Below, piece after piece: positions 3,229 through 64,000 of a stretch of 64,000 bases of DNA. The notes under the pieces were generated by a model. It saw nothing but the letters and a program-made list of their open reading frames with translations. It was not told the DNA's origin and searched no databases. The stretch is taken from contig NZ_KZ987724.1 of the NCBI RefSeq assembly GCF_003614185.1, positions 1,044,149 to 1,108,148 on the forward strand, given 5' to 3'. Position numbers and translations under genes: made by a program. The stretch comes from Paenibacillus aceti. GTDB taxonomy: Bacteria; Bacillota; Bacilli; Paenibacillales; Paenibacillaceae. Position 1 is the stretch's first letter, and each line of letters opens with the position of its first letter.

Positions 3229-4113
3229 ATGAGTATTACACTTGGGATTGCACCAATCGCGTGGACAAATGACGATATGCCGGAGCTTGGTGCGGAGAAC
3301 TCATTCGAGCAATGTATCAGCGAGATGGCTTTATCCGGTTTTACCGGTACGGAGATCGGCAACAAGTATCCCCGCGAGCCGCAAGTGCTGAAGAGCTATT
3401 TGGAGCTGCGAGGCCTTAATGTGGCCAGTGCCTGGTTCAGCGCGTTCCTGACTACGAAACCTTATGCTGAGACTGAGGCGGCTTTTGTACAGCACCGTGA
3501 TTTCCTGCACGCGATGGGCGCCAAGGTCATTGTCGTATCCGAACAGGGCCATAGTGTTCAAGGCCAGATGGATACCCCGGTTATCGATAAGAAACCCGTG
3601 TTCACGGATGAGGAATGGGACAGACTCACAAGCGGCCTGGAGAAGCTTGGTGCGTTAGCTCGTGAGAAAGATATGCGCATCGTCTATCACCATCATATGG
3701 GTACAGGCGTACAGACGACCGCTGAAATTGACCGCTTGATGGCGAACACGGACCCGGACAAAGTATCCCTATTGTTTGACACAGGGCATCTGGTATTCTC
3801 CGGTGAAGATCCACTGGTGATTTTCAAGAAATATCAGGACCGTATTTTCCATATTCACTTCAAGGATATCCGCGAGGATATGCTAAGACAAGTAAAAGAA
3901 GAGAAGCTGAGCTTCTTGCAGAGTGTGAAGAATGGCGTGTTCACAGTGCCAGGCGACGGGATGATCGATTTCCGTCCGATCTGGGAGCTGATCGATGCTA
4001 GCGGTTATGAAGGCTGGATTGTCGTCGAAGCCGAGCAGGACCCAGCTAAAGCTAATCCATTCCTGTATGCTCAAAAAGCGCGGAACTATATTCGTCAAGT
4101 CACGAAAATATAA
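3229..4113 (+). CDS. iolE: Myo-inosose-2 dehydratase
   Basis: 294-residue xylose-isomerase-like TIM barrel matching IolE, which removes water from scyllo-inosose (2-keto-myo-inositol). The N-terminus LGIAPIAWTNDDMPELG and GTEIGNKYPR are family hallmarks. Barrel metal/substrate ligands appear at IVYHHHMGTGVQT, LLFDTGHLVFSG, FHIHFKDIR and the C-terminal WIVVEAEQDP. The start ATG is preceded by GGGAGGT with about 9 bp spacing. It lies 42 bp after iolC. A hairpin follows the stop codon before iolD, so read-through into iolD may be partial. Confidence 0.95.
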   Translation: MSITLGIAPIAWTNDDMPELGAENSFEQCISEMALSGFTGTEIGNKYPREPQVLKSYLELRGLNVASAWFSAFLTTKPYAETEAAFVQHRDFLHAMGAKVIVVSEQGHSVQGQMDTPVIDKKPVFTDEEWDRLTSGLEKLGALAREKDMRIVYHHHMGTGVQTTAEIDRLMANTDPDKVSLLFDTGHLVFSGEDPLVIFKKYQDRIFHIHFKDIREDMLRQVKEEKLSFLQSVKNGVFTVPGDGMIDFRPIWELIDASGYEGWIVVEAEQDPAKANPFLYAQKARNYIRQVTKI

Positions 4114-4120
4114 TCAAAAA

Positions 4121-4152
4121 AGGCATTTCGTTCATTTTTGAATGAAATGCCT
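4121..4152 (+). terminator. Hairpin between iolE and iolD (terminator or processing site)
   Basis: AGGCATTTCGTTC pairs with GAATGAAATGCCT around a TTTT loop, with one G:U pair. It starts eight bases after the iolE stop, has an A-tract upstream and only a short weak T-tract downstream. It could be a leaky terminator, a bidirectional terminator or an mRNA stabilising hairpin within the operon. Confidence 0.6.
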
Positions 4153-4278
4153 AATTTCTCGCTTGAGCTTTCTTTCATCTTCTGGCGGCGGGTCATAGGC
4201 GGTCCATAATGATGAATGAATTCGGCATCTGAGATATGAATACGGATACATGAAATTAAGTTTGGGAGTGTGTGGGGA

Positions 4279-6195
4279 ATGAGCAAAACAATCCGATTAA
4301 CGACGGCGCAAGCTTTGATCAAGTTTTTGAACGCGCAATATGTGAGCGTGGATGGGACAGAAACACCCTTTGTCGATGGGGTTTTCCATATCTTCGGCCA
4401 TGGCAATGTACTCGGTATAGGACAGGCACTGGCTGAGGAGCCTGGTCATTTACGTAATTTCCAGGGCAAGAATGAACAGGGCATGGCTCATGCCGCAATC
4501 GCCTTCGCTAAGCAAAATCTGTGCAAGAAGATTTATGCAGTCACGGCTTCTTCTGGCCCGGGATCGGCGAATATGCTGGTGGCGGCAGCCACGGCATTTG
4601 CCAACAATATTCCGGTATTGTTCCTGCCAGCTGACACCTTTGCCAGCCGTCAGCCAGACCCGGTATTGCAGCAAATGGAGCATGAGCATAGCCATGCCTT
4701 GACCACCAATGATGCCTTCCGTGCCGTAACCCGTTACTGGGATCGCGTGCAGCGGCCAGAACAGCTTATGAGCGCGCTGATCCGCGCCTTTGAAGTGCTT
4801 ACGAATCCGGCCACGACCGGCCCGGTTGCGATCTCCATCCCGCAGGATACGGAGGCGGAGGCCTATGACTATCCAGAGGAATTCTTCAATAAGCGCGTGC
4901 ATTATTTGGATCGCCGTCCGGCGACGGAGCGGGAAATCGAAGCGGCAGCGGCGCTGATTAAGGAGAGCAAGCGCCCTGTCATCATTATCGGCGACGGTGC
5001 CAAATACTCCGAAGCGGGTCCTGCGCTTGAGCAGTGGTCCTTGCAGTGCCATATTCCACTGGTAAGCACACATTCCGGCAAATCGACGATTACGAATGAA
5101 TTTGTCAATGATCTGGGCGGTCTGGGTGTGCATGGGACGAGCGCGGGCAATAAGGCTGTACAGGCGGCGGATCTGATCATCGGGGTGGGTACGAAATACG
5201 ATGATTTCACGACCTCTTCCAAGACGATCTTCAATTTTGAACAGACGAAGTTTATCAATATCAACATCAACCGCAGTCAGACCTATAAGATGGATGCCCT
5301 TCAAATGGTAGCCGATCCGAAACAGGCGATAGAGCAATTGACGCCGAAATTAACAGGCTACAAGACGGCATTCGGCGATGAGATCGCTACGCTGAAGCAG
5401 GAATGGCTGAAGGAAAGAGAGCGCCTGGCAGTGACGCAGTTCAACCGTCAGAGCTTCACCCCTGAAATCGCCGGACATTACACTCAGGAGCGGATGAATG
5501 AATACGCGGAGGCGTTGGGGACGGAACTGACCCAGACCGAGGTGTTCATCAAGCTTAACGATCTGGCTGACGATGATGCGATTGTTGTCGGATCAGCGGG
5601 ATCGCTACCGGGCGATATGCAGCGGCTGTGGAATGTCAAGGTACCGAACACCTATCATCTGGAGTATGGTTATTCCTGCATGGGCTACGAGATCGCAGGC
5701 AGTGTTGGCGTGAAGCTGGCCGCGCCAGATCAAGAGGTCTATGCGCTGCTTGGCGACGGCAGCTTCCTGATGCTGCATACCGAGCTCGTTACGGCGCTAC
5801 AATATAGACAGAAGATTAATATCGTCCTGTTTGACAATTCCGGCTTCGGCTGCATTAACAATTTGCAGATGGCGCATGGCTGCGATAATTTCGGGACGGA
5901 ATTCCGCGATAGCGATGGACAGATCATGAATATTGATTATGCTGCGATCGGTACGGCATATGGTGCGAAGTCCTATGAAGTGCATACGATGAGGCAATTC
6001 GAAGCGGCTGTGCTCGATGCGAAGCAGCAGAATGTATCGACCCTGATCCATGTCAAGGTGCTGCCGAAGACGATGTCAGCAGACTGTGAGGGCAGCTGGT
6101 GGAATGTCGGCGTATCCGCCGTCTCGAAGCGTGAGGAAGTTGAGCAAGCCTACGCGGCGAAGCAAGAGAAACGCAAGTCAGCGAGGAAATATTAA
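4279..6195 (+). CDS. iolD: 3D-(3,5/4)-trihydroxycyclohexane-1,2-dione hydrolase
   Basis: Thiamine-diphosphate-dependent enzyme of 638 residues that opens the ring of trihydroxycyclohexane-dione to 5-deoxyglucuronate. The frame opens with a GTG at 4270, but the ATG at 4279 (MSKTIRLTTAQALI) with TTGGGAG upstream is the better start. The three-domain ThDP fold is evident: the N-terminal Pyr domain (ITEFP-type region here HIFGHGNVLGIGQALAEE), a middle domain with IIIGDGAKYSEAG, and the C-terminal PP domain with LLGDGSFLML followed by the Mg-binding DNSGF stretch. The DNS tripeptide replaces the common NN pair but is usual for IolD. It is the last gene of the iol run and is followed by a strong terminator. 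Confidence 0.95.
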   Translation: MSKTIRLTTAQALIKFLNAQYVSVDGTETPFVDGVFHIFGHGNVLGIGQALAEEPGHLRNFQGKNEQGMAHAAIAFAKQNLCKKIYAVTASSGPGSANMLVAAATAFANNIPVLFLPADTFASRQPDPVLQQMEHEHSHALTTNDAFRAVTRYWDRVQRPEQLMSALIRAFEVLTNPATTGPVAISIPQDTEAEAYDYPEEFFNKRVHYLDRRPATEREIEAAAALIKESKRPVIIIGDGAKYSEAGPALEQWSLQCHIPLVSTHSGKSTITNEFVNDLGGLGVHGTSAGNKAVQAADLIIGVGTKYDDFTTSSKTIFNFEQTKFINININRSQTYKMDALQMVADPKQAIEQLTPKLTGYKTAFGDEIATLKQEWLKERERLAVTQFNRQSFTPEIAGHYTQERMNEYAEALGTELTQTEVFIKLNDLADDDAIVVGSAGSLPGDMQRLWNVKVPNTYHLEYGYSCMGYEIAGSVGVKLAAPDQEVYALLGDGSFLMLHTELVTALQYRQKINIVLFDNSGFGCINNLQMAHGCDNFGTEFRDSDGQIMNIDYAAIGTAYGAKSYEVHTMRQFEAAVLDAKQQNVSTLIHVKVLPKTMSADCEGSWWNVGVSAVSKREEVEQAYAAKQEKRKSARKY

Positions 6196-49558: not shown

Positions 49559-49564
49559 AACACT

Positions 49565-49732
49565 GGTGCGAACCCCAAGCTCACATGAAATCCCCGGGGG
49601 ATTCGCACCGACGTAGCGGCGCGGCTTCCGGGCATTTTCGATACATTTTTTCACAAATAGTTTCGTTGAAAATGGACATTCGCACTTTAGGGCCTCTCAG
49701 CCCTTGCTCCATAAGGGCTGTTTTGGGGCGGA
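49565..49732 (+). promoter_or_regulatory. CRISPR leader 1
   Basis: 168 bp immediately before the first repeat. It opens with a dyad (GGTGCGAA...TTCGCACC), includes a T-rich centre and ends with a CAGCCCTT...AAGGGCTG hairpin and GGGGCGGA. The same 168-bp sequence, with roughly one change per ten bases, precedes the second array at 61976, so it is a genuine leader that should carry the array promoter and, in cells with Cas1-Cas2, the integration signal. Confidence 0.85.
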
Positions 49733-50494
49733 GTCACTCCTTGCACAGGAGTGTGGATTGAAAGACGACTTTTATGCCGTCCATCGTTTTCCGATTCACG
49801 TCACTCCTTGCACAGGAGTGTGGATTGAAAGAATCCTGTCCAGGACAGAACGGGACAAATACAAGGGCGTCACTCCTTGCACAGGAGTGTGGATTGAAAG
49901 CAAAATCCAGCCGCCCGCCTGAATCGCTATGTAAAGTCACTCCTTGCACAGGAGTGTGGATTGAAAGACCTGTGTAATCGCCATTTATGCGGCCTCCTTC
50001 GTTGTCACTCCTTGCACAGGAGTGTGGATTGAAAGATTGCAATGGTCTGGAAGGGCGGTCACAGAAGAAACGGTCACTCCTTGCACAGGAGTGTGGATTG
50101 AAAGTTTCCAAATCTGAACGTTATTATTTCGACCACGAAGGTCACTCCTTGCACAGGAGTGTGGATTGAAAGTGTCTGATCGTCTCAAACAATTCCCGCT
50201 TATCTAGTCACTCCTTGCACAGGAGTGTGGATTGAAAGAAGGTTTGGACCGTCTTTGTCAATTCAATTGAAAGTCACTCCTTGCACAGGAGTGTGGATTG
50301 AAAGATTGTTCGTTACTCTGGAAGTTTTGATATTAACAGGTCACTCCTTGCACAGGAGTGTGGATTGAAAGTCCTCTCCGAGTTGTTTGATCATATCGAG
50401 CAAGGGTCACTCCTTGCACAGGAGTGTGGATTGAAAGCGGATCTTGCCCAGTACACTGCGCCGAAGCAGGGGTCACTCCTTGCACAGGAGTGTG
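49733..50494 (+). CRISPR. CRISPR array 1, leader-proximal part (11 full repeats plus a split one)
   Basis: 32-nt repeats beginning GTCACTCCTTGCACAG and ending GAGTGTGGATTGAAAG, at 49733, 49800, 49869, 49936, 50004, 50073, 50141, 50207, 50273, 50340 and 50406. A twelfth starts at 50472 and is cut at 50494 by an IS66 element. Spacers are 34-37 nt, all different. The repeat forms a 7-bp stem (CACTCCT/AGGAGTG) and leaves an ATTGAAAG handle. The repeat is type I-C-like but the linked effector genes are type III-B. No repeat variants occur. Confidence 0.97.
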
Positions 50495-50580
50495 GTAAGC
50501 GTCAAACCCAGCACACCTGTCCATAATGGTTTGAATCAGTCACAATAAATCCATCACACATACGAAAGGATGGATTGTGA

Positions 50581-50889
50581 ATGGAGATGAATTTACAGGC
50601 GTTATGGGCGGAACGAATTCAGGCTTATCGGGCCAGTGGGCAAACGATGAAAGCTTGGTGCGCGGAGCAGAATCTGACCGTTCATCAATTAAAATACTGG
50701 CTCTACAAAGCCCAAAGACAAGATCAGGCCGCTTCCGCCACTACCTTCCGTCCGGTTACGGTTACCCATCAGGCTGCAGCAACCGAATCGCTTCAAATCC
50801 AAGTCGGGGTCGCTCGGATCGATGTTCGTTCCGGTTTTGAACCGGGGCTGCTTCGCGACGTGGTTGCGGCTCTTGCCCCGTTATGCTGA
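50581..50889 (+). CDS. tnpA: IS66 TnpA accessory protein
   Basis: 102-residue protein with the IS66 Orf1 pattern: an N-terminal helix-turn-helix-like segment (WAERIQAYRASGQTMKAWCAEQ, LTVHQLKYWLYK) followed by a variable tail. It overlaps tnpB by 7 bp (ATGCTGA), typical translational coupling in IS66. Required with TnpB for transposition in studied members; exact role unknown. Confidence 0.88.
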   Translation: MEMNLQALWAERIQAYRASGQTMKAWCAEQNLTVHQLKYWLYKAQRQDQAASATTFRPVTVTHQAAATESLQIQVGVARIDVRSGFEPGLLRDVVAALAPLC

Positions 50890-51236
50890 GTTTCACTTCA
50901 GCATCACCGGTATATCTGGCTTGTGGCGCAACCGACATGCGTAAATCCATTGACGGACTTGCGGCGATCGTGCAGGAGCAATTCGCGCTTAACCCGTTTT
51001 CCCCGGCGCTGTTTGTGTTCTGCAATCGCAGGCGGGACAAGCTCAAAATCCTGCACTGGGATCATGCCGGCTTCTGGCTCTACTATCGCAGACTGGAACG
51101 TGGTTCGTTTCAGTGGCCCGCAGGCGGCACGACTCCTTTGTGCCTTTCGCAGCGTGAACTGCGCTGGCTGCTGGACGGCCTTTCGCTCACCCAGCGTCAG
51201 GCGCATGCCCCTGTTTCGCCGGAAGTAGCGATCTAA
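50883..51236 (+). CDS. tnpB: IS66 TnpB (Orf2) protein
   Basis: 117-residue IS66 Orf2. Hallmarks are VYLACGATDMRKSIDGLAA, FVFCNRRRDKLKILHWD and GFWLYYRRLERG, FQWP. Unrelated to the IS200/605 TnpB nuclease despite the shared name. Lies between tnpA (overlapping) and tnpC (18 bp gap). Confidence 0.93.
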   Translation: MLSFTSASPVYLACGATDMRKSIDGLAAIVQEQFALNPFSPALFVFCNRRRDKLKILHWDHAGFWLYYRRLERGSFQWPAGGTTPLCLSQRELRWLLDGLSLTQRQAHAPVSPEVAI

Positions 51237-51254
51237 TAGGATCTAAACTAGGGC

Positions 51255-52874
51255 ATGCAGGATTTGGAGCTGCGCTTGTCGAATCATACCCTCATGAAAA
51301 ATGAACCGGAATCCCTCACCCTTGAACAACTTCAACAGCAAAATGCCCAGTTGGAACAACAAAATCGCCAGCAGGAACGGGAGCTTGCCGAGCTGTCCGC
51401 GAAACTGAAGTGGTATGAAGAACAGTTTCGGCTCGCGCAGCAGAAGCGCTTTGGCGCTTCCAGCGAGAAGACGCATCCGGATCAACTGGAGCTGAATCTG
51501 TTTAACGAAGCGGAAGTAACGGCTTTGCCAGAACCGGAAAAAGAATCGATCACGTATGAGCGCCGTAAAACCAGCGGCAAACGCGAAGCCGATCTATCCA
51601 AACTGCCGGTGGAAACCGTCACGTATACCCTTGCGGAACACGAGCAAATCTGCGACTGCTGCGGGGGCTCGCTGCATGAGATGACCACGGAGACCCGCCG
51701 TGAAATTGCAGTGATGCCCCCACAGGTCAAGCTCGTAGAGCATGTGCGTCACGTGTATGCCTGCCGTCATTGCGAGCGCCACGAGCTGCAAACGCCGATC
51801 CTCACGGCCCCGATGCCTCGGCCCGTCTATCCTGGCAGTCTAGCCTCGCCATCGGCGATGGCGCATATCATGTGCCAAAAATACGTCAATAGTCTGCCAC
51901 TGTACCGGCAAGAGCAGGATTGGGCCCGTTTGGGGTATCCGCTGTCGAGGCAAACGATGGCGAACTGGATGATCTACGGCGCGGAGCAGTGGCTAAAACC
52001 CGTTGTCGCGGAAATGAAACGGTATTTGCTGAAGCAAGAGGTGCTGCACGCGGACGAGACAACGCTGCAGGTGCTGAAGGAGCCTGGGAAAGCGGCGCAG
52101 TCGGAGTCGTATATGTGGCTGTACCGCACAGGTCAAGGAGTGGGTCCGGTGGTGCTCTACGACTACCAGCGTACGCGAGGCGGCGAACATCCGAGAGATA
52201 TGCTGGCGGGGTTCAACGGCTATCTGCATGTGGATGGGTACCCCGGCTACCACAAGGTCAAGGATGTGACACTGGTTGGATGCTGGGCGCATGCGCGTCG
52301 CAAATACGATGAAGCCCTGAAAGCGGCGCCGGAGGCCAGAAGCAATCCGCACAGTGTGGCTGCGCAAGGGCTTGCCTGGTGCAACCAGCTATTTGCCATT
52401 GAGCGGGAGCTCAAAGAAGCGACGCCTGAGGAACGACGGAAGGCACGTGAGGAGCAAAGCCGTCCGGTGCTGGATGGTTATTATGCTTGGCTACGTCAGC
52501 AGAAACCCCGGACGATGCCGAAGAGCTTGCTGGGTCAGGCGATTGCCTACAGTCTGAACCAGTGGGACAAACTGACGGCTTTCCTGAAAGATGGTCGGCT
52601 GGAGATTGACAATAACCGCGGGGAGCGTTCGATCAAGCCGTTTGTGATCGGACGAAAAAACTGGCTGTTTGCCTATACACCGAGGGGAGCTGCAGCTAGC
52701 GCAGCAATCTACAGCGTAATCGAGACGGCCAAGGAAAATGGGCTGCATCCGTTCCGTTATCTCACGTACCTGTTTGAACAATTGCCGCAACAGGTTAATC
52801 TGCAAGAGGCGCAGGTATTAGAGCCCTTCATGCCGTGGTCATCGACATTACCGGACTTCTGTCGTCTAAACTAA
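51255..52874 (+). CDS. tnpC: IS66 transposase TnpC
   Basis: 539-residue DDE transposase. An N-terminal Gln-rich leucine-zipper coiled coil (residues 15-60) is followed by the zinc-finger-like CDCCGG...CRHC region. The catalytic core has LHADETTLQV (first Asp), HVDGYPGYHKV (second Asp) and EIDNNRGERSIKP (Glu). The IS66 C-terminal domain ends the protein (FRYLTYLFEQLPQ). Intact and full length. Confidence 0.95.
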   Translation: MQDLELRLSNHTLMKNEPESLTLEQLQQQNAQLEQQNRQQERELAELSAKLKWYEEQFRLAQQKRFGASSEKTHPDQLELNLFNEAEVTALPEPEKESITYERRKTSGKREADLSKLPVETVTYTLAEHEQICDCCGGSLHEMTTETRREIAVMPPQVKLVEHVRHVYACRHCERHELQTPILTAPMPRPVYPGSLASPSAMAHIMCQKYVNSLPLYRQEQDWARLGYPLSRQTMANWMIYGAEQWLKPVVAEMKRYLLKQEVLHADETTLQVLKEPGKAAQSESYMWLYRTGQGVGPVVLYDYQRTRGGEHPRDMLAGFNGYLHVDGYPGYHKVKDVTLVGCWAHARRKYDEALKAAPEARSNPHSVAAQGLAWCNQLFAIERELKEATPEERRKAREEQSRPVLDGYYAWLRQQKPRTMPKSLLGQAIAYSLNQWDKLTAFLKDGRLEIDNNRGERSIKPFVIGRKNWLFAYTPRGAAASAAIYSVIETAKENGLHPFRYLTYLFEQLPQQVNLQEAQVLEPFMPWSSTLPDFCRLN

Positions 52875-52934
52875 TCTCATTCATCATACACGGGCCCCAG
52901 TCTGTCCGCTAGGTGGGGTCTATTTGACGTTCAC

Positions 52935-54085
52935 GGAGTGTGGATTGAAAGTCGTAATCGTCCAGAGCCTTCGCCAAAGAAGCAGTCACTCCTTGCACAG
53001 GAGTGTGGATTGAAAGTTCCCACCAAAGCGAAGGAGAAGAACCGCGATTTCCGTCACTCCTTGCACAGGAGTGTGGATTGAAAGACTATCATTTTCGATT
53101 GTAAACTTAGCGTTGGTGTCACTCCTTGCACAGGAGTGTGGATTGAAAGCGTGGTACTCAAAGACAAGCGGCATACCAATTATGTCACTCCTTGCACAGG
53201 AGTGTGGATTGAAAGTCAGAGTAGAACCTGTTATTAAAGAAGCTGATATATGTCACTCCTTGCACAGGAGTGTGGATTGAAAGATACTGGACTTCAGAAG
53301 TGATGGGACAGGGGAAGAGTCACTCCTTGCACAGGAGTGTGGATTGAAAGAACGATGTTTTCAGCGATGGATTGGATTGTGTCGTCGTCACTCCTTGCAC
53401 AGGAGTGTGGATTGAAAGTGTGTCAGCTAGGGATTTGACTAGTGGTAACACAAAGTCACTCCTTGCACAGGAGTGTGGATTGAAAGTCAATGATGGGAGC
53501 ATATCATTATTCCTCGGCGGTGTCACTCCTTGCACAGGAGTGTGGATTGAAAGCCGCAGGGATGTATAGCCCGTTTCCTCGGATCAACGTCACTCCTTGC
53601 ACAGGAGTGTGGATTGAAAGAAATGTTATATTTTTAAGCTCCATGCTCAAACCTCGTCACTCCTTGCACAGGAGTGTGGATTGAAAGCTCATACGGAAAA
53701 TAAAAGCCGACGAATTGCGCAGGTCACTCCTTGCACAGGAGTGTGGATTGAAAGATCTAACAGAGTATACATAACAGTAGCTGGAAAGTCACTCCTTGCA
53801 CAGGAGTGTGGATTGAAAGGATAAGGATTGGTACAAAGAGAAGGCAAAGAACGTCACTCCTTGCACAGGAGTGTGGATTGAAAGATCGATGCGGCGAGCG
53901 CGGAAGATGTAAACGAGCTGTCACTCCTTGCACAGGAGTGTGGATTGAAAGATAATGTCTCTACGGAGCGGAGCTGGATTGGATGGTCACTCCTTGCACA
54001 GGAGTGTGGATTGAAAGATGTAATGTAAGTATTTCAGAGTGTGAGTATATGGTGTCACTCCTTGCACAGGAGTGTGGATTGAAAG
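52935..54085 (+). CRISPR. CRISPR array 1, leader-distal part (17 full repeats plus the split one)
   Basis: The rest of the split repeat (52935-52951) is followed by 17 repeats identical to those before the IS: 52985, 53053, 53118, 53184, 53252, 53319, 53387, 53455, 53522, 53589, 53656, 53723, 53788, 53853, 53920, 53986 and 54054, the last ending at 54085. Spacers are 33-36 nt. Joined across the IS, array 1 has 29 repeats and 28 spacers. Without read-through of the 2.4-kb element these 17 spacers are cut off from the leader promoter. Confidence 0.97.
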
Positions 54086-54356: not shown

Positions 54357-55691
54357 TTGCCGGAGGATTTTACAATAGGAGATCTACAATTAGAGCAGTT
54401 GCAGGATATGGTTACCAAAGTCTCTATGGACCTTAGGAAAGCAAAAAACAGGAAATTTGAAGGTTCAAGTGTACAAGATCAGGGATTCTATGAAATACGC
54501 GTAGTTACTCCTATGTTTGGCGGGAGCGCTGAAGCAGGGAAAATAAATGAAAAGTATCCTATACGCAGCTCTTCTATTCGTGGACATCTTCGTTTCTGGT
54601 GGCGGGCTACAAAAGGAGCACAGTTTAAAAATGAAAAGGAACTATATGAACGTGAGAGCGAGATTTTTGGAAATACGAATCGTCCAAGTTCGGTAAAGAT
54701 TTGGGTGGACCATGATGAAATAAAAAATGCAGTCTCAGATTTACAAAGAAATTTAGATCCTAGTTATGTTTTTTTTCCGTTTAGAGAAAACAAGTCATCT
54801 ACTAAATATAGCAAGGATTTCAGCTTTAGACTCCATATTGAGTATGCAGATCAAAGTGTAAGAACTGAAATAGAAGCAGCGCTATGGGCCTGGATTAATT
54901 TCGGTGGGATAGGGACAAGAACGAGAAGGGGATGCGGCAGTCTATATTGTGAATATTTCTCGTTAAAAGAGTCAGAGGTCCATGAAAGTAAGCTTGAAAA
55001 GTGGTTCCAGGATAATATGAGAAAATATCGAATTGAGATTTTAGAACAAGATCAAGTAAGAGAATGGCCTACTTTAAGCACTATCACAATACAGGAAAAT
55101 AAAAAAGATATACAGTATGCATGGAACGAAGTCATAGAGGCATACAAAAGTTTTCGGAGACGAGCTAATAAAGGGAAGGGTAGGAGTCATTGGCCAGAAG
55201 CAGATTCTATTCGTAAAATAACAGGCGAATTTGAAACAAGGCACAAAGATCCAATTACTATTTCTCTTAAAAAGAATGATATTGCTTTTCCTAGAGCGCA
55301 ATTTGGATTGCCTATCGTATTCAGCTTTAAACCGGGTAAGGATCCTTATCGAACTGAACTGATCCTAAGTGAAAAAAAGACAAGACTCGCCTCCCCAGTG
55401 ATTACGAAAGCAATAGCAATAAATGAGAAACAGGGGTATGGAGCAATCATCGTGCTGAATCAGCCAAGGATAAAGGAGCTCGTATTAAAGAAGCAAAGAG
55501 GTAAAGTTCTGAAAAAAATCTATGCACATCAAATCTACACATCCATACCAACTTATAAGAAGCCAGAAAAACCAGGTGAAAATAAAGATAAAAATCCAAT
55601 GCGCAATAAAGACCAATCCTATGAATCGGCAATTGAAGCGTTTTTAAACAGTGAGGAGGTTAGGAAGTGGAAGAGCGGGAAAAACAGTTAG
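54357..55691 (+). CDS. cmr1: Type III-B RAMP protein Cmr1
   Basis: 444-residue RAMP-fold protein. Residues about 68-86 (YPIRSSSIRGHLRFWWRATKG) are the diagnostic Cmr1 motif, and GGIGTRTRRGCGSL near residue 185 is the glycine-rich RAMP loop. It starts at TTG 54357, preceded by AGGGAGGGG. Cmr1 caps the target-RNA 3' side of the Cmr complex. It is the first gene of the operon and overlaps cmr2 by 25 bp. Codon use is more AT-rich than the flanking chromosome, consistent with lateral arrival of the cassette. Confidence 0.93.
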   Translation: MPEDFTIGDLQLEQLQDMVTKVSMDLRKAKNRKFEGSSVQDQGFYEIRVVTPMFGGSAEAGKINEKYPIRSSSIRGHLRFWWRATKGAQFKNEKELYERESEIFGNTNRPSSVKIWVDHDEIKNAVSDLQRNLDPSYVFFPFRENKSSTKYSKDFSFRLHIEYADQSVRTEIEAALWAWINFGGIGTRTRRGCGSLYCEYFSLKESEVHESKLEKWFQDNMRKYRIEILEQDQVREWPTLSTITIQENKKDIQYAWNEVIEAYKSFRRRANKGKGRSHWPEADSIRKITGEFETRHKDPITISLKKNDIAFPRAQFGLPIVFSFKPGKDPYRTELILSEKKTRLASPVITKAIAINEKQGYGAIIVLNQPRIKELVLKKQRGKVLKKIYAHQIYTSIPTYKKPEKPGENKDKNPMRNKDQSYESAIEAFLNSEEVRKWKSGKNS

Positions 55692-57541
55692 AGCAGCAAG
55701 AAGCCTTCAAAGCGTTAATGATCTTCTCTATCGGACCTGTTCAAGAATTCATTGCTCAAGCCCGGAGAACACGTGATTTATGGTTCGGATCTCATTTGCT
55801 CTCTGAATTAAGTAAGGTAGTTGCTATAACTATTGATGAACAGCACGGTGAGCTTATCAGCCCATATTTCGATAAAGATATCTTGGCGGACAAGCAGAAA
55901 CTAGCGGAGTTAAAGGTTGCTAACAAGATTTATGCCATTGTAGAGACAAATGATCCTAAACAGATTGCACAAACAGTTCGTAAGGCAATTACAAAGAAAT
56001 GGAGAGAATATACAGAGCAAGCTAAGAGTGAATTGCAGGGCTGGATCAATGAAGGGGCATGGGATCGACAAATCAAAGATGTGATCGAGTTTTATGCTGC
56101 TTGGTCAAGGCTTGATAGCGATAACGAATACCGTCTAGTTCGAGAAAGAACAGAACAACTATTGTCTGCTCGTAAGGCATTACGAGATTTTAAGCAGAAT
56201 GAACCCGGGCGATTATTTGGTGAGCAGAAATCTAGTCTGGATGCCGGACGGGAATCTGTTCTCTGGATGGATCGTTATGAAGAGTTTCGCAAAAAGGGAA
56301 TTAAGAAGAATGAAACCATGGATGCGATATCTTTGGTGAAGCGACTATCGATACAAATTACAGAAGGAAGCTATAGTTTTCCATCGGTATGCGAGACTGT
56401 GTTCAAATCATTCCAAAAGAAAGTTCACACTAATCCAGAATGCAAAGTGGAGGTGGATCGCTATTACTCTAGCCTACGACAGAGACTTAGTTCAATCTTG
56501 AAGCTAGATGGAGACAGTATTGACAGCTATGACTCTCGCTTATTCTATGAGAGCCGTATAGATGATTATGTTAACGAACATGCTGCACGTAACACAACCG
56601 AGGAACAACGAACTGAAATTATAAAATCGATAAAAGTAGATTTGCAGAACTTATATGATCGTCTGAGCACCATCGGTGTTCAATTCACTCCATATTATGC
56701 GTTCATTCAGTGCGATGGCGATGGAATGGGGGATTTGGTGCGCAGTTTTGCCACTTCCAGTGAGCATCAGAATTTCAGCAAGCACCTTTCCCAGTTTGCT
56801 TCAGAGGCCAAACAAATTGTGAAGGCTTGCGAAGGTGAGCTTATTTACAGTGGCGGGGACGATATTATGGCGTACGTTCCACTACATAGATGTCTCGAGG
56901 TATCCAATGAACTCCGTAAGAGATTTGCAGAAATTCTGCAGAATGCAGTGCCGAAAGACAAGAAAGCTCCCACATTATCTGTCGGCTTGGCGATTGTCCA
57001 TATGCGTGAACGGCTCGAAGAAGTCCGCGAATTAGCACGGAATGCAGAGAAAATGGCCAAGGCTCGTAAAGATGAATTGGCGGTATTTTTTCAGAAGCGT
57101 AGCGGCGGAGATTTGATGAGAATCAGTCTTCCATTCTCGACAGACCCTGTAAATAATATACAGAAGCTTATCGGTCTTTTTCGGCAGGGAGTTCTATCTT
57201 CTCAATTTGCATACGGATTAAGGGACTTGTATATGAAGTACGAACAGATGCTAGGCCCTAAAAAGTGGAAGATCACCGATAGTGAGTTACATATCCTTAT
57301 ATGGCAGGAAATTGAACGATCTCTCAAAAAGAAAAGCCCGGAGCTTCTAACAAGCAGTATGGATGAGAATTTAGCAGTTGAGGCTTTACCATTACTTAGA
57401 GGCATGTATGAGTCCGTAAATCAATCTGAGGAAGATAGATTACTCCCATTGAAATTGTTAGCTGAACAATTGATTATTGCTGTGACTTTAGAGAAGGCAG
57501 GTTATGAGACTGATGCAAATATTGAGAATACAACCTCTTGA
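55667..57541 (+). CDS. cmr2: Cas10/Cmr2, type III-B large subunit without HD nuclease domain
   Basis: 624 residues, short for Cmr2 (archaeal forms exceed 800). The protein begins almost directly with the first cyclase-like domain (FSIGPVQEFIAQARRTRDLWFGS), so the N-terminal HD DNase domain is missing. The catalytic palm is intact: FIQCDGDGMGDLV and YSGGDDIMAYV, with GGDD at residues 396-399. The expected output is cyclic oligoadenylate made when target RNA is bound. GTG at 55667 follows GAGGAGG; the gene overlaps cmr1 by 25 bp and cmr3 by 38 bp. Confidence 0.95.
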   Translation: MEEREKQLEQQEAFKALMIFSIGPVQEFIAQARRTRDLWFGSHLLSELSKVVAITIDEQHGELISPYFDKDILADKQKLAELKVANKIYAIVETNDPKQIAQTVRKAITKKWREYTEQAKSELQGWINEGAWDRQIKDVIEFYAAWSRLDSDNEYRLVRERTEQLLSARKALRDFKQNEPGRLFGEQKSSLDAGRESVLWMDRYEEFRKKGIKKNETMDAISLVKRLSIQITEGSYSFPSVCETVFKSFQKKVHTNPECKVEVDRYYSSLRQRLSSILKLDGDSIDSYDSRLFYESRIDDYVNEHAARNTTEEQRTEIIKSIKVDLQNLYDRLSTIGVQFTPYYAFIQCDGDGMGDLVRSFATSSEHQNFSKHLSQFASEAKQIVKACEGELIYSGGDDIMAYVPLHRCLEVSNELRKRFAEILQNAVPKDKKAPTLSVGLAIVHMRERLEEVRELARNAEKMAKARKDELAVFFQKRSGGDLMRISLPFSTDPVNNIQKLIGLFRQGVLSSQFAYGLRDLYMKYEQMLGPKKWKITDSELHILIWQEIERSLKKKSPELLTSSMDENLAVEALPLLRGMYESVNQSEEDRLLPLKLLAEQLIIAVTLEKAGYETDANIENTTS

Positions 57542-58790
57542 TCCGTTGATGATTCGTGATGGTCGTCCCTTTGATATGACACCTGGAATTAAGGCACACT
57601 CCCTAAGTGATGTGTCTCCAAGTGTATTGGCAGGTACGATTCGCACTGTGCTGGGGAAGTATAGCAAGGATGTAAACCCGATTATAAATGGAGATCGAAA
57701 TATTTACAGACAGCTTAGTTCCAAAAAAAGCAAAGTGGTCGTGCGAGGGCCTTTATATGAGAAGGACGGGGAGATATTTTATCCCGTACCTCAGGATGTA
57801 GGGTTCTATCATTCTACTGAGAATAAGAAACTAGGCGTGGATATCCGCAGACCTGTTCAGCTTCTTGAAGGCGAAGGATTTTATGGAATCGGTACAAATG
57901 GTTTGTATGAGAATCTATTATGGCTGCCGATGAGTAAGCAGGTACATAAAGAAACTTCCGAGGCTCCGGCATATATGTCAGCGACACTTATGCATCAGTG
58001 GCTACTGGACGAATTATCCCAGGAGGATTGGGGCAGAGAACTGAAAAGATGGAGCGAGAAGCAGAATGGTAGTCATTTTATTGAGAAGTTTCCCCGTGAA
58101 GAGAGAGTTCATACTGCCATCGATCATACGACTTATACGGCGGAGGATCAGAAATTATTCTCTACTGAATCGATTATCCTTCCCGATGGAATGAGCATGC
58201 TCGTGGCAGTTGATGTATCACAGTCAAATATAGATTGGCCAAGGGATTTGTCGCTTGTTCATTCCCTGGGAGGCAAGAGAAGACTTGCTCATTTCAGTGC
58301 AGATAATCATGAAACTTCCGCTTATTGGAAATGCCCTGAGTCTATATTGAACGCCGTGAAGGAGAAGACATACATTCGTATGGTTTTAGCCACTCCAGCT
58401 TATTTCTCCAAGGGTTGGCTTCCGGGAGGTTTTAATGAGGAGCTTGTATATGAGAATGCTTGGGAATCAGGGGTGAATTTAAGGCTTCTTTTTGCTTGTA
58501 TTCCGAGATGGCAACCTGTATCCGGTTGGAGATATGGCGAGATTCCAGAGGATCATAGTAAGGAAAATTCAGCTCAAAAAAATGAGAAGACAGGCAGGGA
58601 GAAACCGGTACGCAGATTAGTTCCTGCTGGAAGTGTATATTTCTTCGAAGTAACAAAGGGGAATGCCGAAGATCTCGTGAAACTGAAGTGGCTGGCTTCA
58701 GTATCCGATGAAAATCGCAGAAAGTCTGCTTTTGATCATGAAGATGGATTTGGTCTGGCATTATGGGGAGTTTGGGAGCCTAGTAAATAA
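57504..58790 (+). CDS. cmr3: Type III-B RAMP protein Cmr3
   Basis: 428 residues. The N-terminus (LRIQPLDPLMIRDGRPFDM) and the early SVLAGTIRTVLG segment are Cmr3 hallmarks; KGWLPGGF and the C-terminal GFGLALWGVW form the RAMP glycine-rich loop region. Cmr3 binds the crRNA 5' handle beside Cas10. The start ATG 57504 overlaps the end of cmr2; the ATG at 57513 is an alternative. Positioned between cmr2 and cmr4 as in canonical Cmr operons. Confidence 0.93.
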   Translation: MRLMQILRIQPLDPLMIRDGRPFDMTPGIKAHSLSDVSPSVLAGTIRTVLGKYSKDVNPIINGDRNIYRQLSSKKSKVVVRGPLYEKDGEIFYPVPQDVGFYHSTENKKLGVDIRRPVQLLEGEGFYGIGTNGLYENLLWLPMSKQVHKETSEAPAYMSATLMHQWLLDELSQEDWGRELKRWSEKQNGSHFIEKFPREERVHTAIDHTTYTAEDQKLFSTESIILPDGMSMLVAVDVSQSNIDWPRDLSLVHSLGGKRRLAHFSADNHETSAYWKCPESILNAVKEKTYIRMVLATPAYFSKGWLPGGFNEELVYENAWESGVNLRLLFACIPRWQPVSGWRYGEIPEDHSKENSAQKNEKTGREKPVRRLVPAGSVYFFEVTKGNAEDLVKLKWLASVSDENRRKSAFDHEDGFGLALWGVWEPSK

Positions 58791-58806
58791 TTTGGAGGGT
58801 TAGACG

Positions 58807-59757
58807 ATGACTAATAGTAAATTATATTTTATGCACTGCATATCTCCCGTACATATTGGCGCGGGACAAGGTGTGGGAATTATAGATCTTCCGATGATGA
58901 GAGAACGGATTACCGAGTGGCCTTTCATTCCTGGTAGCAGTGTAAAAGGGGTTCAAAGAGATTACTATACTCGGCAAATGAATACCAACCCGCAAAAAAT
59001 AACGCAAGCGTGGATCGATACGGCTTTTGGGAAGGCGCATGATGAGAATGAATCCAATGCAGGTGCGGTTGTATTCTCGGATAGCCGCCTCTTTGCATTT
59101 CCTGTAGCTAGTCAATACGGAACATTTGCTTATGTAACTTGTCCTTTGGTTATCCAACGGTTCCTCAGAGACCTGAGCGCAGCGGGATTATCGGAAAATC
59201 ATAACGATAGGAATCCGGATAAATATGAGGAGATGCTTAATTGGGTTAATGGTTTGATTTCCGATGAGGTTCAAGCTATAGTTACTAATTTCAATAAAAA
59301 TAAAGATAGTGACGGGATCATTTATTTGGATGAATTCGAGTGTCGCTCAAAGTATGAGAAAGATTCGATATTCGATAGATGTATGGAGGTCCTTTCCAAA
59401 CAAATATTCTCAGATCCTCTATCCCAGAAGATGTTTAAAGAGCGTGTTGTTATGGTGTCAGATGATGCTTTCCAATATTTTGTGACCATGTGTTGTGAAG
59501 TGGTGACTCGCATTCGTATGGATGATGAGAAAAAGATCGTCAAAAAAGGACACCTATGGACGGAGGAGTATCTGCCAGTGGAATCAATATTGTACGGGAT
59601 TGTCTGGTGCGATAATCTTAGAAGTTCTTCAGGCTATAGTGAGGCTAATATACTCCGGGATTTGGAGGGGGAAACCCAGCTGCAAATTGGAGGGAATGCG
59701 AGTGTTGGTAAAGGTCGTGTACGCTTCCGTATTCCAGAGGGAGGGGGAGAACGATGA
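58807..59757 (+). CDS. cmr4: Type III-B backbone RNase Cmr4
   Basis: 316 residues. The N-terminal GAGQGVGIIDLPMMRERIT carries the catalytic aspartate (Asp27) that cuts target RNA every six nucleotides, and WPFIPGSSVKGVQRDYYT is the RAMP motif. QIGGNASVGKGRVRF is the C-terminal glycine-rich loop. TTTGGAGGG precedes the ATG. It overlaps cmr5 by four bases (ATGA). The RNase residue is intact, so target RNA cleavage should be functional. Confidence 0.95.
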   Translation: MTNSKLYFMHCISPVHIGAGQGVGIIDLPMMRERITEWPFIPGSSVKGVQRDYYTRQMNTNPQKITQAWIDTAFGKAHDENESNAGAVVFSDSRLFAFPVASQYGTFAYVTCPLVIQRFLRDLSAAGLSENHNDRNPDKYEEMLNWVNGLISDEVQAIVTNFNKNKDSDGIIYLDEFECRSKYEKDSIFDRCMEVLSKQIFSDPLSQKMFKERVVMVSDDAFQYFVTMCCEVVTRIRMDDEKKIVKKGHLWTEEYLPVESILYGIVWCDNLRSSSGYSEANILRDLEGETQLQIGGNASVGKGRVRFRIPEGGGER

Positions 59758-60155
59758 AATCTCAGGATCATTATTATGCTCAGACGGCTTACAATTGCAT
59801 TAAGCGAATAGAAAATGCTCATGTCCAATCCAAAGCTAATGCTCAAGAGTACGGCAGATTATGTCACAGATTTCCTGCAATGGTGATGTTGAATGGTCTA
59901 AGGCTAACGGTGGCCTACTTCGAAAGTGTAAATAAGGGTGAGATGCATCAAAATTATATTGCTGATTTGGGTTCTGTTCTTGGAATACAAAACTGGAATG
60001 AAGAGTTGCCGGAGCAGAGTAGCCAATATCGACATCTGACGAGACGAGCTCTCCAAGCGTCTGTTTGGTTTAAACGCTATGCCGAGGCTATTTTGAAGGT
60101 AGAGGGGGGAGAAGCAGATGATGACAATGAACAGACAAGAGACCTTGACGATTAA
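59754..60155 (+). CDS. cmr5: Type III-B small subunit Cmr5
   Basis: 133-residue, helical small subunit. The pattern AYNCIKRI, KANAQEYGRLCHRFPAMVMLNGL and the C-terminal LTRRALQASVWFKRYAEAIL match Cmr5. It forms the minor filament of the complex. The ATG overlaps the cmr4 stop and its own end overlaps cmr6 by 38 bp, so translation is tightly coupled. Confidence 0.92.
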   Translation: MKSQDHYYAQTAYNCIKRIENAHVQSKANAQEYGRLCHRFPAMVMLNGLRLTVAYFESVNKGEMHQNYIADLGSVLGIQNWNEELPEQSSQYRHLTRRALQASVWFKRYAEAILKVEGGEADDDNEQTRDLDD

Positions 60156-60930
60156 CCTTCATTTGGCGTTGACGAAGTTGAAGGGGGCATCCAAACAATC
60201 TGATTTGCTGTCAGTGATTCGAGATAAGGGTGAGAGTAAGAAGGTTTTTTATGAGAAAATTATTAAAAGATGGCACCCAGATCAATATGAATGGTACAAG
60301 CACCGGATGAAGCAATTTTATAATCAGGTAGATCCGAAATATTCACGTCTGCTTATTGTAAAGAATGATTCTCCCTTGGTTATCGGGCTTGGACAACGTT
60401 CAGTGTTAGAGACTAATTTGACCCTTCATCCTGTCTATGATGTCCCTTATATTCCTGGAACTGCAATTAAGGGAGCGGCTGCTCATTTCTGTCATCAATA
60501 TTTAGGAAATGAAGATGCGGGATTTAAGAGGGATGGCGTCTATTACAGGACACTATTCGGTTCTGAGGAACAAGCGGGTCTGATTCATTACTATGATGCT
60601 TTTCCTAAAAATAATAAAAATTTGGTGGAATTAGATGTGATGACGCCTCATCATCAGGGTTATAACGATGGGGCTAAGGCCGCACCACGAGATGATGATG
60701 ATCCTGTGCCAGTTCATTTTTTGACTGTGAGTAGAAACACAAAATTTTGTATACTTATCACTTGTAATTCCGAGGATTCCCAGGATACAAAATGGCTCGA
60801 TCTAGCTCAAGACATCATCAAGGCCACAGTTGAGCATGTAGGTCTTGGAGGTAAGACGAATTCGGGATATGGGAAATTTAGCTTTGTAGAAGGAGGACAT
60901 GCAGATGGGGAATCAAGTAACCAGTGCTGA
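60118..60930 (+). CDS. cmr6: Type III-B RAMP protein Cmr6
   Basis: 270 residues. VLETNLTLHPVYDVPYIPG and TAIKGAAAHFCHQYL form the RAMP core motif (PGTAIKGA). GLGGKTNSGYGKFSF is the glycine-rich loop near the C-terminus. It starts at ATG 60118, with GGGGGA upstream; overlaps cmr5 at one end and the following DUF6602 gene at the other (26 bp). Completes a full set of Cmr subunits 1-6. Confidence 0.93.
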   Translation: MMTMNRQETLTINLHLALTKLKGASKQSDLLSVIRDKGESKKVFYEKIIKRWHPDQYEWYKHRMKQFYNQVDPKYSRLLIVKNDSPLVIGLGQRSVLETNLTLHPVYDVPYIPGTAIKGAAAHFCHQYLGNEDAGFKRDGVYYRTLFGSEEQAGLIHYYDAFPKNNKNLVELDVMTPHHQGYNDGAKAAPRDDDDPVPVHFLTVSRNTKFCILITCNSEDSQDTKWLDLAQDIIKATVEHVGLGGKTNSGYGKFSFVEGGHADGESSNQC

Positions 60931-61780
60931 TATTATAAAAAATATTGCGGATAACTATGTGCAGTTGGAGAAGTCAATTGTAAGTCAGTTGCGTTTAAGT
61001 TGTGATAATCATTATGTAACGATTGGTAGTTTTAGAGAAGAAATATGGCAATCCCTATTTGAGAAGATTGTTCCTAGAAAATTCTCTATTGAACGTTCTG
61101 TTTTTATTATTGATTCTCATAAAAATGTGTCTAAAGAGGTAGATTTAGCGATCTTTGATGAGCAGTATACTCCGTACATATTTAACCATGGGAGTATAAA
61201 ATATATTCCGATTGAAGCCGTGGCGGTTGTAGTTCAATGTAAGAGTGACAAGTTAGATAGTAAAAATATTGATAAATGGGTTAAGAGTATAAAAAAACTA
61301 AAAACTTCTCAACAATCTATAGTCAGAATGTACAGTGGTGTAGTATGTGGAACAGATAAAATAGAAGGTGAGCTAACTCAAACATCAACCAGACCTATTC
61401 GCATCTTGTGTCATATAAATGAAACAACTACGAAGAGTTGGATAGATGATTTTGATATAGTTATAAGTGTAGAAGATAATCATTTAAAGACAGTGATGGC
61501 AGAGGGATGTCTTAGTGATTGGTATGAAAAACTAAATCATGCGGATTCCAAGTATGGAGAAAATATTAAAAAGGCAGACAGTATTTCAAATATCACATTG
61601 GACAAATATAAAATAAAAAGCTCAGATGAAAGCAAAGAAGTTTCACTCATGTCATTAGTGTTTCAATTGAATCAATTGCTAATGCTAATTAATAACCCTA
61701 TACTATTTCCACATTTAGCTTACGTTGAGATGATAAATGGAGTTTTAAATCCTAAAACGAGTAAAGATTTGGAGCATTAG
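60905..61780 (+). CDS. DUF6602 protein with a PD-(D/E)XK-like core, last gene of the cmr operon
   Basis: 291 residues, not a known Cas protein. It matches my recollection of the DUF6602 family: GSFREEIWQSLFEKIVP, SKEVDLAIFDEQYTPYIF, IPIEAVAVVVQCKSDKLD. The last two segments have the order and spacing of a PD-(D/E)XK nuclease: Asp80 in EVDLAIFD, Glu104 in IPIEAV and Gln111-x-Lys113 in QCKS (a QxK variant as in Mrr-type enzymes). No CARF, HEPN or membrane segment is evident; the C-terminal 60 residues are helical. AAGGAGG is eight bases before ATG 60905, and the start overlaps cmr6 by 26 bp, so it is co-translated. Likely an accessory nuclease; activity is inferred only. Confidence 0.75.
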   Translation: MGNQVTSADIIKNIADNYVQLEKSIVSQLRLSCDNHYVTIGSFREEIWQSLFEKIVPRKFSIERSVFIIDSHKNVSKEVDLAIFDEQYTPYIFNHGSIKYIPIEAVAVVVQCKSDKLDSKNIDKWVKSIKKLKTSQQSIVRMYSGVVCGTDKIEGELTQTSTRPIRILCHINETTTKSWIDDFDIVISVEDNHLKTVMAEGCLSDWYEKLNHADSKYGENIKKADSISNITLDKYKIKSSDESKEVSLMSLVFQLNQLLMLINNPILFPHLAYVEMINGVLNPKTSKDLEH

Positions 61781-61807
61781 AATCGATTTATAACGCCATT
61801 AGCAGTT

Positions 61808-61975
61808 GGTGCGAACCCCAAGCTCACATGAAATCCCTGGGGGATTCGCACCAGCGTAGTGGCGCGGGTTCTCGGCATTTTCAATACATTTTTTAACAAA
61901 TAAATATGCTGAAAATGGACATTCGCACTTTAGGGCCTCTCAGCCCTTGTCCCATAAGGGCTGTTTTGTGGCGGA
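61808..61975 (+). promoter_or_regulatory. CRISPR leader 2
   Basis: 168 bp, the same length as leader 1 and aligned without gaps; the last 70 bases before the repeat (CATTCGCACTTTAGGGCC onward) are nearly identical. Differences cluster in the middle. It starts 27 bp after the DUF6602 stop, so the array probably also receives read-through from the cmr operon. Confidence 0.85.
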
Positions 61976-62678
61976 GTCACTCCTTGCAAAGGAGTGTGGA
62001 TTGAAAGAAAAAGTACAGAGCAACAAAAGAAAATGTAATCTTGTCACTCCTTGCAAAGGAGTGTGGATTGAAAGATCCGGTGCTAAGATTTTTTCTAACT
62101 TTCCTTTGCGTCACTCCTTGCAAAGGAGTGTGGATTGAAAGGTACGTGTCGCGCCGGAAGCAACCGGGAAGTCGATGGTCACTCCTTGCAAAGGAGTGTG
62201 GATTGAAAGCCTTTGCGGTCTTGAAGTCCTGTGTACCACATGATGTCACTCCTTGCAAAGGAGTGTGGATTGAAAGATAAAACGAGTTTTCACGCGAAAA
62301 AAGGGGAGACGCGTCACTCCTTGCACAGGAGTGTGGATTGAAAGATGTCGTACACCTCCTTTCCGGCTTACGAATAAGAGTCACTCCTTGCACAGGAGTG
62401 TGGATTGAAAGCGTACAGCATAATACAACAGCAGAGCTATGCCACGTGTCACTCCTTGCACAGGAGTGTGGATTGAAAGGGAAGTGCAGCCGATCTACGG
62501 AGGAAACTAGACGTCACTCCTTGCACAGGAGTGTGGATTGAAAGTTCGGATTCTGTCAGGCTCTAGCTCCGGACTTCTGTCACTCCTTACACAGGAGTGT
62601 GGATTGAAAGGACGGGGAAGCAAGCGCAAGTAGCATCGCGCGTAACGTCACTCCTTACACAGGAGTGTGGATTGAAAG
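61976..62678 (+). CRISPR. CRISPR array 2 (11 repeats, three repeat variants in order)
   Basis: 32-nt repeats at 61976, 62043, 62110, 62178, 62245, 62313, 62380, 62448, 62513, 62579 and 62647. The first five read CTTGCAAAGG in the loop, the next four CTTGCACAGG (the array 1 type), the last two CTTACACAGG. Spacers are 33-36 nt and unique. The A variant lengthens the stem by one T:A pair. Same orientation as the cmr genes. Confidence 0.97.
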
Positions 62679-62886: not shown

Positions 62887-63204
62887 ATGGGAGAACAGAG
62901 ACAACGTTATAACGAAGAGTTCAAGAAACAAACGGTAAGGTTCATTCAAGAACAAACCAAAACGGTAGCCGATCTGGCGGAGGAATTGAATATTCCTCGA
63001 AGTACCTTACACCAATGGATGAGCCAGTATCGGGAATTAAAGAACGAACCGGCAGCCCGTGTAGATCGGGTACGAGAGTTGGAAGCCCAATTAAATGAAA
63101 TGAGCCGTCAACTCCAGGAAAAAGAGCAAAAGATTGCAGATGTCGAAGAAGAACTAGCCATCGTAAAAAAAGCAGTGCACATCTTCAGCAAACCAAAGAA
63201 CTAA
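62887..63204 (+). CDS. IS3-family OrfA
   Basis: 105-residue protein with an N-terminal helix-turn-helix (YNEEFKKQTVRFIQEQTKTVADLAEELNIPRSTLHQWM region) and a leucine-zipper-like coiled coil (VRELEAQLNEMSRQLQEKE). It binds the element ends. Near its 3' end, GTA-AAA-AAA at 63163-63171 provides an A7 run for -1 slippage into orfB, giving the OrfAB transposase. Confidence 0.92.
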   Translation: MGEQRQRYNEEFKKQTVRFIQEQTKTVADLAEELNIPRSTLHQWMSQYRELKNEPAARVDRVRELEAQLNEMSRQLQEKEQKIADVEEELAIVKKAVHIFSKPKN

Positions 63205-64000
63205 GATTTCAATTTATTGAAGAACATCGCTCCGAGTTCTCTTTGGTGAAGATGTGCAAAGTCCTTCAGGTTTCCCGGAGCGGTTATTACAAGTGGAGAA
63301 TCAAGAAACCCTGCGAGCAGGCGCTTCGGAAGAAGGCTGTGATGGACCGTATTCAGTACCATTTCCATGACCATGAAAAGCGTTATGGCAGCCCTAAAAT
63401 CACCCATCTTCTGCATCAGGAAGGGCACTGCATTGCGGAACGAACGGTGAGTGTGTATATGCGTGAAATGAAGTTACGCTCCGTGGTATCTAGGAAGTTT
63501 CGCGTGCGAACTACAGATTCTGACCATGACCATCCGATTGAACCTAATCATCTGAATCAGCAATTTAACGTATCCCAACCCAACACGGTTTGGGTAACCG
63601 ATATCACGTATATTCCTTGCCGGGAGGGGCGATTATATCTTGCGAGTGTTATGGATCTATGCACTCGAGAGATTGTAGGATGGCGTTTAGACAACCACAT
63701 GGAGACGAGTCTGGTGCTGGGAGCCTTACAGGACGCTTATAAAGCCAAACGTCCTAAGAAGGGCTTGATTCATCACTCTGACCGTGGAACTCAGTATACC
63801 TCCCATGAATACCGAAAAACGTTGAAAAAGTACCAGATGCTATCCAGTATGAGTCGAAAAGGAAATTGCTATGACAATGCGTGCATCGAGTCCTGGCATA
63901 GTGTTTTGAAAAAAGAACTCATTTATTGCAATGCTCGCTTCAAAACGAAGAAACAAGCTTACCAGGCTTTGTTTCAATATATTGAGTTTTATTACAATCG
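63166..64000 (+). CDS. IS3-family OrfB transposase domain, 3' end outside window
   Basis: Read in the -1 frame relative to orfA, entered by slippage on A7 at 63165-63171; there is no obvious independent start. The HTH_21 region (KMCKVLQVSRSGYYKW) precedes an rve integrase core with TVWVTDITYIP (first Asp), HHSDRGTQYTS (second Asp) and NACIESWHS (Glu), exactly 35 residues between the last two (DD35E). The sequence is open to the window edge, so it looks intact. Confidence 0.9.

Follow-up and report, generated by a model that had tools for sequence, protein, structure and literature searches.

The stretch of Paenibacillus aceti DNA analysed here (64,000 nucleotides of contig NZ_KZ987724.1, hereafter the window) carries, directly behind a type III-B CRISPR (clustered regularly interspaced short palindromic repeats) operon, a gene for a protein of the DUF6602 family, and the question raised by this locus is what this protein does and what could switch it on. 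An earlier note, made from the sequence alone, proposed an accessory nuclease of the Cmr system with an unrecognised mode of activation. The first half of this proposal is supported by the nuclease fold of the protein and by its linkage to Cas10; the second half is largely not, since the protein is a NucC, for which activation by cyclic triadenylate (cA3), with neither a CARF nor a SAVED domain, is published (PMC8682760, PMC9704534; papers are cited here and below for excerpts of them). It is in our view highly probable that the neighbouring Cmr system has this protein as its NucC-type effector, with cA3 as the most likely signal.

The open reading frame (60905–61780, plus strand) is intact and encodes 291 amino acids. 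The protein matches the PADLOC NucC profile PDLC01051 from end to end (267 bits, E 3.6e-80, residues 7–278 of 291 against profile positions 7–240 of 243), and NucC entries of the Protein Data Bank (PDB) are matched by its sequence. Its assignment to DUF6602, already made in the earlier note, holds (78.7 bits for a cut-off of 27), and no NCBIfam family is matched above its cut-off. The AlphaFold model has the PD-(D/E)XK nuclease fold on which the earlier note had staked its proposal, and a fold search with this model, in which seven NucC entries were structurally aligned, finds the NucC fold. Profile matches and predicted structure together place the protein in the NucC family, as a member of a divergent long clade that PADLOC already labels NucC. 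This resolves the call of a domain of unknown function, and provides the Cmr locus with a recognised effector.

The gene adjoins a complete type III-B operon, as had been claimed: profiles match cmr1, encoding a Cas7-like RAMP (54357–55691; PADLOC Cmr1, 224 bits), cas10/cmr2 (55667–57541; Pfam Cas10-Cmr2_palm2 and Cmr2_N, NCBIfam TIGR02577, 213 bits), cmr3 (57504–58790; Pfam Cas_Cmr3, 242 bits), cmr4 (58807–59757; PADLOC Cmr4, 263 bits), cmr5 (59754–60155; Pfam Cas_Cmr5, 68.9 bits) and cmr6 (60118–60930; PADLOC Cmr6, 186 bits), which together occupy positions 54357–60930, all on the plus strand. The nuclease gene begins within cmr6, with which it shares 26 bp (60905–60930), and an AAGGAGG inside cmr6 (60890–60896, same strand), 8 nt upstream of the ATG at 60905, is its likely ribosome-binding site. 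This ATG is a better start than the alternative one at 60899, because the latter is too close (2 nt) to the AAGGAGG. The overlap and the AAGGAGG, both pointed out in the earlier note, are confirmed from the sequence, but the genes only overlap and are not fused as its wording implied.

The window Cas10, the only one detected in the whole genome, keeps the cyclase motif SGGDD, and no HD domain is found in it by profile, nor any HD or HE dipeptide within its first 200 residues, which agrees with the previous description of a signal-competent Cas10 that lacks its own HD nuclease. It had also been said that no CARF effector is present: the Csx1-CARF and Csx1-HEPN families have no match in the whole genome, other CARF families not having been searched. 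The intact cyclase motif, the single Cas10 and the lack of a Csx1 family member make the published route from cA3 to NucC the simplest reading. By analogy with the published NucCs, the Cmr complex, guided by CRISPR RNA (crRNA), would bind phage RNA, and the HD-less Cas10 cyclase would then make a cyclic oligoadenylate, most likely cA3. An idle nuclease trimer would bind cA3 in a pocket on its three-fold axis and pair into a hexamer, which would cut double-stranded DNA and lead to abortive infection, that is, to cell death.

The earlier note had put forward enrichment beside type III loci as a test, and this enrichment is observed. With the window protein as query, 40 relatives were retrieved from named genomes, and Cas10 is present within the fetched flanks (at most 10 kb per side) in 39 of them. 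By type, 23 are in III-B loci, as their cmr genes show, a Cas10 of a different kind accompanies another 16, and one, L051, has none; it lies on a 6.9-kb contig, where Cas1, Cas3 and Cas4 genes adjoin. Among the 23 III-B loci, nucC directly follows cmr6 in 16, and in one more, L024, it overlaps cmr6 by more than our script allows. Because the query itself adjoins cmr genes, a draw by profile was also used: 398 genomes of the class yielded 17 places in 15 genomes, and 15 of these places were retrieved again with flanks of about 10 kb, the two places in the P. aceti genome itself being left out. Cas10 lies within about 10 kb in 7/7 long-clade loci of this draw, versus 0/7 DUF6602 relatives outside the clade, a broken 77-amino-acid fragment beside Cas10 (L091) being set apart from these counts. 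The lack of a GGDD string in the Cas10 of some relatives is no evidence for activation without a cyclase, since those whose palm region could be aligned carry other xGDD forms.

Residue counts compare 48 long-clade with 5 short NucC sequences, a second NucC of the P. aceti genome being counted once, among the short ones; open reading frame lengths were taken from the first start codon. Dropped beforehand were L012 (77 amino acids, the remnant of a broken gene), four sequences that do not belong to the clade (L011, L013, L014 and L016), and repeat retrievals of the window gene and the second NucC; L015, L017 and L019 were not picked at the phmmer step, and one of the two tandem open reading frames of L037 was used. 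Four observations weigh against a cA3-driven NucC. The Foldseek TM-scores (template modelling scores) are modest, 0.38–0.46 by query, with root-mean-square deviations of 5.6–8.2, and global hhalign gave no sensible alignment of the C-terminal part. Two of the three residues that we take to contact cA3 differ in 48/48 long-clade members. Finally, Q111 of the window protein replaces the Glu equivalent to E114 of Serratia NucC (with a numbering offset of 10 residues), whose change to Ala leaves no interference in a recombinant assay (PMC13060164).

The modest scores and high deviations indicate that the inserts and the C-terminus differ from those of the solved NucCs. The cA3 contacts of E. coli NucC are, as we assume, R53, Y81 and T226, and the equivalent positions of the window protein are K59, Y88 and N264. 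The long clade has Lys, Tyr and Asn at these positions (48/48), against Arg, Tyr and Thr in the short NucCs (5/5). Every one of the seven structural alignments to NucC entries, available as ranges, stops at residue 264 of the model and residue 226 of the chain (236 for Serratia), and this supports the presumed pairing of T226 with N264. N263, N264, P265 and H270 are invariant in the long clade, and N263, P265 and H270 are, like N264, clade-specific. The sensor pocket of the clade would therefore have Lys and Asn where solved NucCs have Arg and Thr. The previous suggestion of a cryptic sensor in the C-terminal half was partly right, in that one presumed pocket residue lies there, in a region that is among the most distinctive of the clade.

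These differences could mean that the same NucC-family nuclease recognises a different Cas10 product, of another ring size or with a modified nucleotide, a reading that departs from ours in the ligand alone. The Lys and Asn found in every long-clade member and in none of the five short NucCs, together with the clade-specific N263, P265 and H270, speak for it, but the change of Arg to Lys is conservative, Y88 is kept in 48/48, a three-fold pocket suits a three-fold ring, and the NucCs described in the excerpts cited use cA3 (PMC8682760, PMC13060164, PMC9704534). A non-cA3 ligand is in our opinion unlikely, and a pocket that binds cA3 slightly differently is likelier.

As to the metal site, the motifs EVDLAIFD (78–85), IPIEAV (101–106) and QCKS (111–114) do follow each other in the nuclease order given in the earlier note, which had overlooked that a Gln stands in place of the catalytic Glu of solved NucCs. 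E45, D80, Q111 and K113 make up a PD-(D/E)XK-type metal site if the Gln variant is allowed. The catalytic residues of E. coli NucC, presumably D73, E104 and K106 (the positions fit the chain), correspond to D80, Q111 and K113. Because the Glu of the ExK motif is absent, the protein is filed as a divergent member of the NucC family and not as a canonical NucC. E45, D80 and K113 are invariant in 48/48 long-clade members, whereas at position 111 Gln is found in 34 of them and Glu in the other 14; the short NucCs have Glu there (5/5). The Gln form occurs in five phyla: Bacillota, Bacteroidota, Pseudomonadota (2 sequences), Myxococcota (1) and Fusobacteriota (1), several sequences being metagenome-assembled. 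A tree of 53 rows, in which very long branches separate short from long NucC and many forks are unresolved, needs five changes between Gln and Glu, at least three of them forced by well-supported branches.

It could be argued from the Serratia Ala mutant that the Gln-Cys-Lys branch is a dead or strongly weakened NucC, acting as a structural or cA3-buffering partner. However, D80, K113 and E45 would not be expected to stay invariant in a dead enzyme, the Gln form spans five phyla, three of them by one or two sequences only, and a Gln in this motif is said to chelate the metal equally well, coordinating it in structures of the BisI family (PMC11347163). A 2005 survey of the PD-(D/E)XK superfamily also lists variants with Gln or Asn, as well as side chains that have migrated (PMC1189080). 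Because of the invariant D80 and K113, a dead enzyme is very unlikely.

The position two residues before the catalytic Asp may compensate for the Gln: it is Glu (E78) in 48/48 long-clade members and Gln in 5/5 short NucCs. E78 immediately precedes the strand 79–85 of the AlphaFold model, and since residues i and i+2 of a strand point to the same side, E78 could lie at the metal site. Among 72 DUF6602/NucC hits taken together with the window protein, 69 rows keep the Asp and the Lys (the exceptions are L064, a fragment without the site, L051:5603–6880, L017 and L019); 12 of these have Gln78–Glu111, 19 Glu78–Glu111, 38 Glu78–Gln111 and none Gln78–Gln111, a pattern and not a test, because the rows share ancestry and include near-copies or the same gene twice (L040/L041/L042, L053/L056, and L067/L120 with an L037 open reading frame, recognised by common 60-residue stretches). 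These classes fit a history in which the old Glu became dispensable once a further carboxylate had been gained, and the long clade may thus have a PD-QXK version of the metal site, in which E78 replaces the lost Glu.

A bolder view combines the two sites: the long clade would be a functionally distinct second branch of NucC, in which the gain of E78 let the Glu become Gln, so that the metal site migrated, and in which the pocket was rebuilt with Lys, Asn-Asn-Pro and His for a non-cA3 signal or for another cA3 threshold. As the genome also has a short, canonical NucC with no Cas10 in the DNA fetched around it, and no SMODS cyclase was found genome-wide, one Cas10 could drive two NucCs that differ in threshold or ligand. 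We regard this as speculative and rather unlikely. In sequences from five phyla, the clade has changes at the metal site and, judging from the contacts that we assume, at the ligand pocket of a suicide nuclease that has been well studied. If the pocket did prefer another ligand, it could serve as an orthogonal readout for Cas10-based RNA detection, short NucCs having been used in PMC8682760 and PMC13060164. As for a Cmr complex that activates the nuclease directly, in place of a diffusible signal, along the lines of the direct binding suggested in the earlier note, it is extremely improbable in spite of the tight gene linkage, the position of nucC directly before cas10 in part of the clade and a NucC–Cas10 fusion reported in Virgibacillus (PMC11229360), because the cyclase motif of Cas10 is intact and published NucCs respond to free cA3 (PMC8682760).

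The assignment to a cA3-driven NucC can be compared with known systems. The NucCs of E. coli MS115-1 and P. aeruginosa (PDB 6p7o, 6p7p, 6q1h) differ from the window protein by the Glu-to-Gln, Gln-to-Glu, Arg-to-Lys and Thr-to-Asn changes described above. They presumably have partners of the cyclic-oligonucleotide-based antiphage signalling system (CBASS), whereas no SMODS (PF18144) match is found genome-wide in P. aceti, other CD-NTase families not having been searched. We know of no cyclic-nucleotide control in the BisI-family and Mrr-like PD-QXK nucleases. These nucleases are modification-dependent restriction enzymes that share the Gln of the (D/E)XK motif with the window protein (PMC11347163), an analogy of the metal site only. 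A system of the same layout is VmeCmr of V. metoecus, also a III-B locus with an HD-less Cas10, in which cA3 is the main product and activates NucC (PMC8682760). However, the V. metoecus NucC (PDB 6uxf, 6uxg) is a short chain of 245 residues with FEVKQ, and Arg and Thr at the presumed pocket positions, where the 291-residue window protein has QCKS, Lys and Asn. The Vibrio locus also has Cas6 and lies on a prophage (PMC8682760), whereas the P. aceti genome has no match to CRISPR_Cas6 (PF10040). The Serratia NucC (PDB 7zgv, 7zgw) belongs to a type III-A system and is short, with Glu at position 114 (PMC13060164), in contrast with the long, Gln-bearing III-B protein of the window. According to Hoikkala et al., 35 type III loci contain NucC, and NucC–Cas10 fusions are rare (PMC11229360). 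No paper was found under the name DUF6602 or for a NucC with a Paenibacillus type III Cas10, and a NucC with a Gln active site or a variant pocket is not described in the excerpts of PMC8682760, PMC11229360, PMC13060164, PMC12669027, PMC12409355, PMC10419184 and PMC9704534. As far as our searches go, the paired changes that the long-clade sequences suggest at the metal site and the pocket are new.

The second NucC of the genome is a canonical short one (L060:9971–10699, at 5.435 Mb; 242 amino acids, FEVKQ; 326 bits to PADLOC PDLC00745, 'Endonuclease (NucC)'), with a caspase-like gene nearby. No Cas10 was found in the 19.5 kb fetched around it, and the Cas10 of the window might drive this NucC in trans. 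The long-clade nuclease itself has no match among 50,697 phage records, and matches 90 plasmid records, one of them with a query coverage of at least 80%.

Several relatives have peculiarities of their own. Some long-clade loci carry two tandem NucC open reading frames before cas10 (L037:2640–3668 and 3802–4821), contig 36 of G549 has two NucC-family places, and L084 (2572–4227 and 7821–9488, minus strand) apparently contains a pair of Cas10 genes, of which one is split in two. The DUF6602-like proteins of L017 and L019 keep the Asp and have Gln-x-Leu instead of (E/Q)-x-Lys, L017 also lacking the Glu, and are possibly inactive nucleases. Directly behind nucC of L051, an open reading frame of 426 amino acids (L051:5603–6880) matches the NucC core profile with none of the four site residues on the alignment; it is possibly an inactive NucC-like partner, or else it is misaligned or out of register.

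Three CRISPR arrays, all on the plus strand, flank the operon and the nuclease gene. The first (49733–50494) has 11 repeats and the left part of a twelfth, and the second, upstream of cmr1 (52935–54085), has the right part of a repeat and 17 repeats. Between them, a 2.4-kb element (50495–52934) with transposase-like open reading frames of 539 and 117 amino acids, which we take to be IS66-like, is inserted within a repeat and bounded by the 8-bp direct repeat GGAGTGTG (50487–50494 and 52935–52942), so that the two arrays look like a single array split by this insertion. As stated in the earlier note, the nuclease gene is followed by a second leader: a 202-nt copy (61807–62008, plus strand, repeat family D5) is 91% identical to positions 49564–49765, the leader upstream of the first array, and reaches into the first of the 11 repeats, all of the GTCACTCCTTGCAMAGGAGTGTGGATTGAAAG family, that form the third array (61976–62678). 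The repeats of this array vary by blocks, with GCAAAG in the five leader-proximal copies, GCACAG in the next four and a TACACAG type in the last two. Elsewhere in the genome there is a complete type I-C operon, cas3-cas5c-cas8c-cas7c-cas4-cas1-cas2 (L098:3088–11323, about 5.344–5.352 Mb), whose array shares the repeat end GTGGATTGAAAG with the repeat of the window. Because Cas6 was not found in the genome, Cas5c of this type I-C locus may process the Cmr crRNAs. Immediately behind the third array lie further transposase-like open reading frames (62887–64000), presumably IS3-like.
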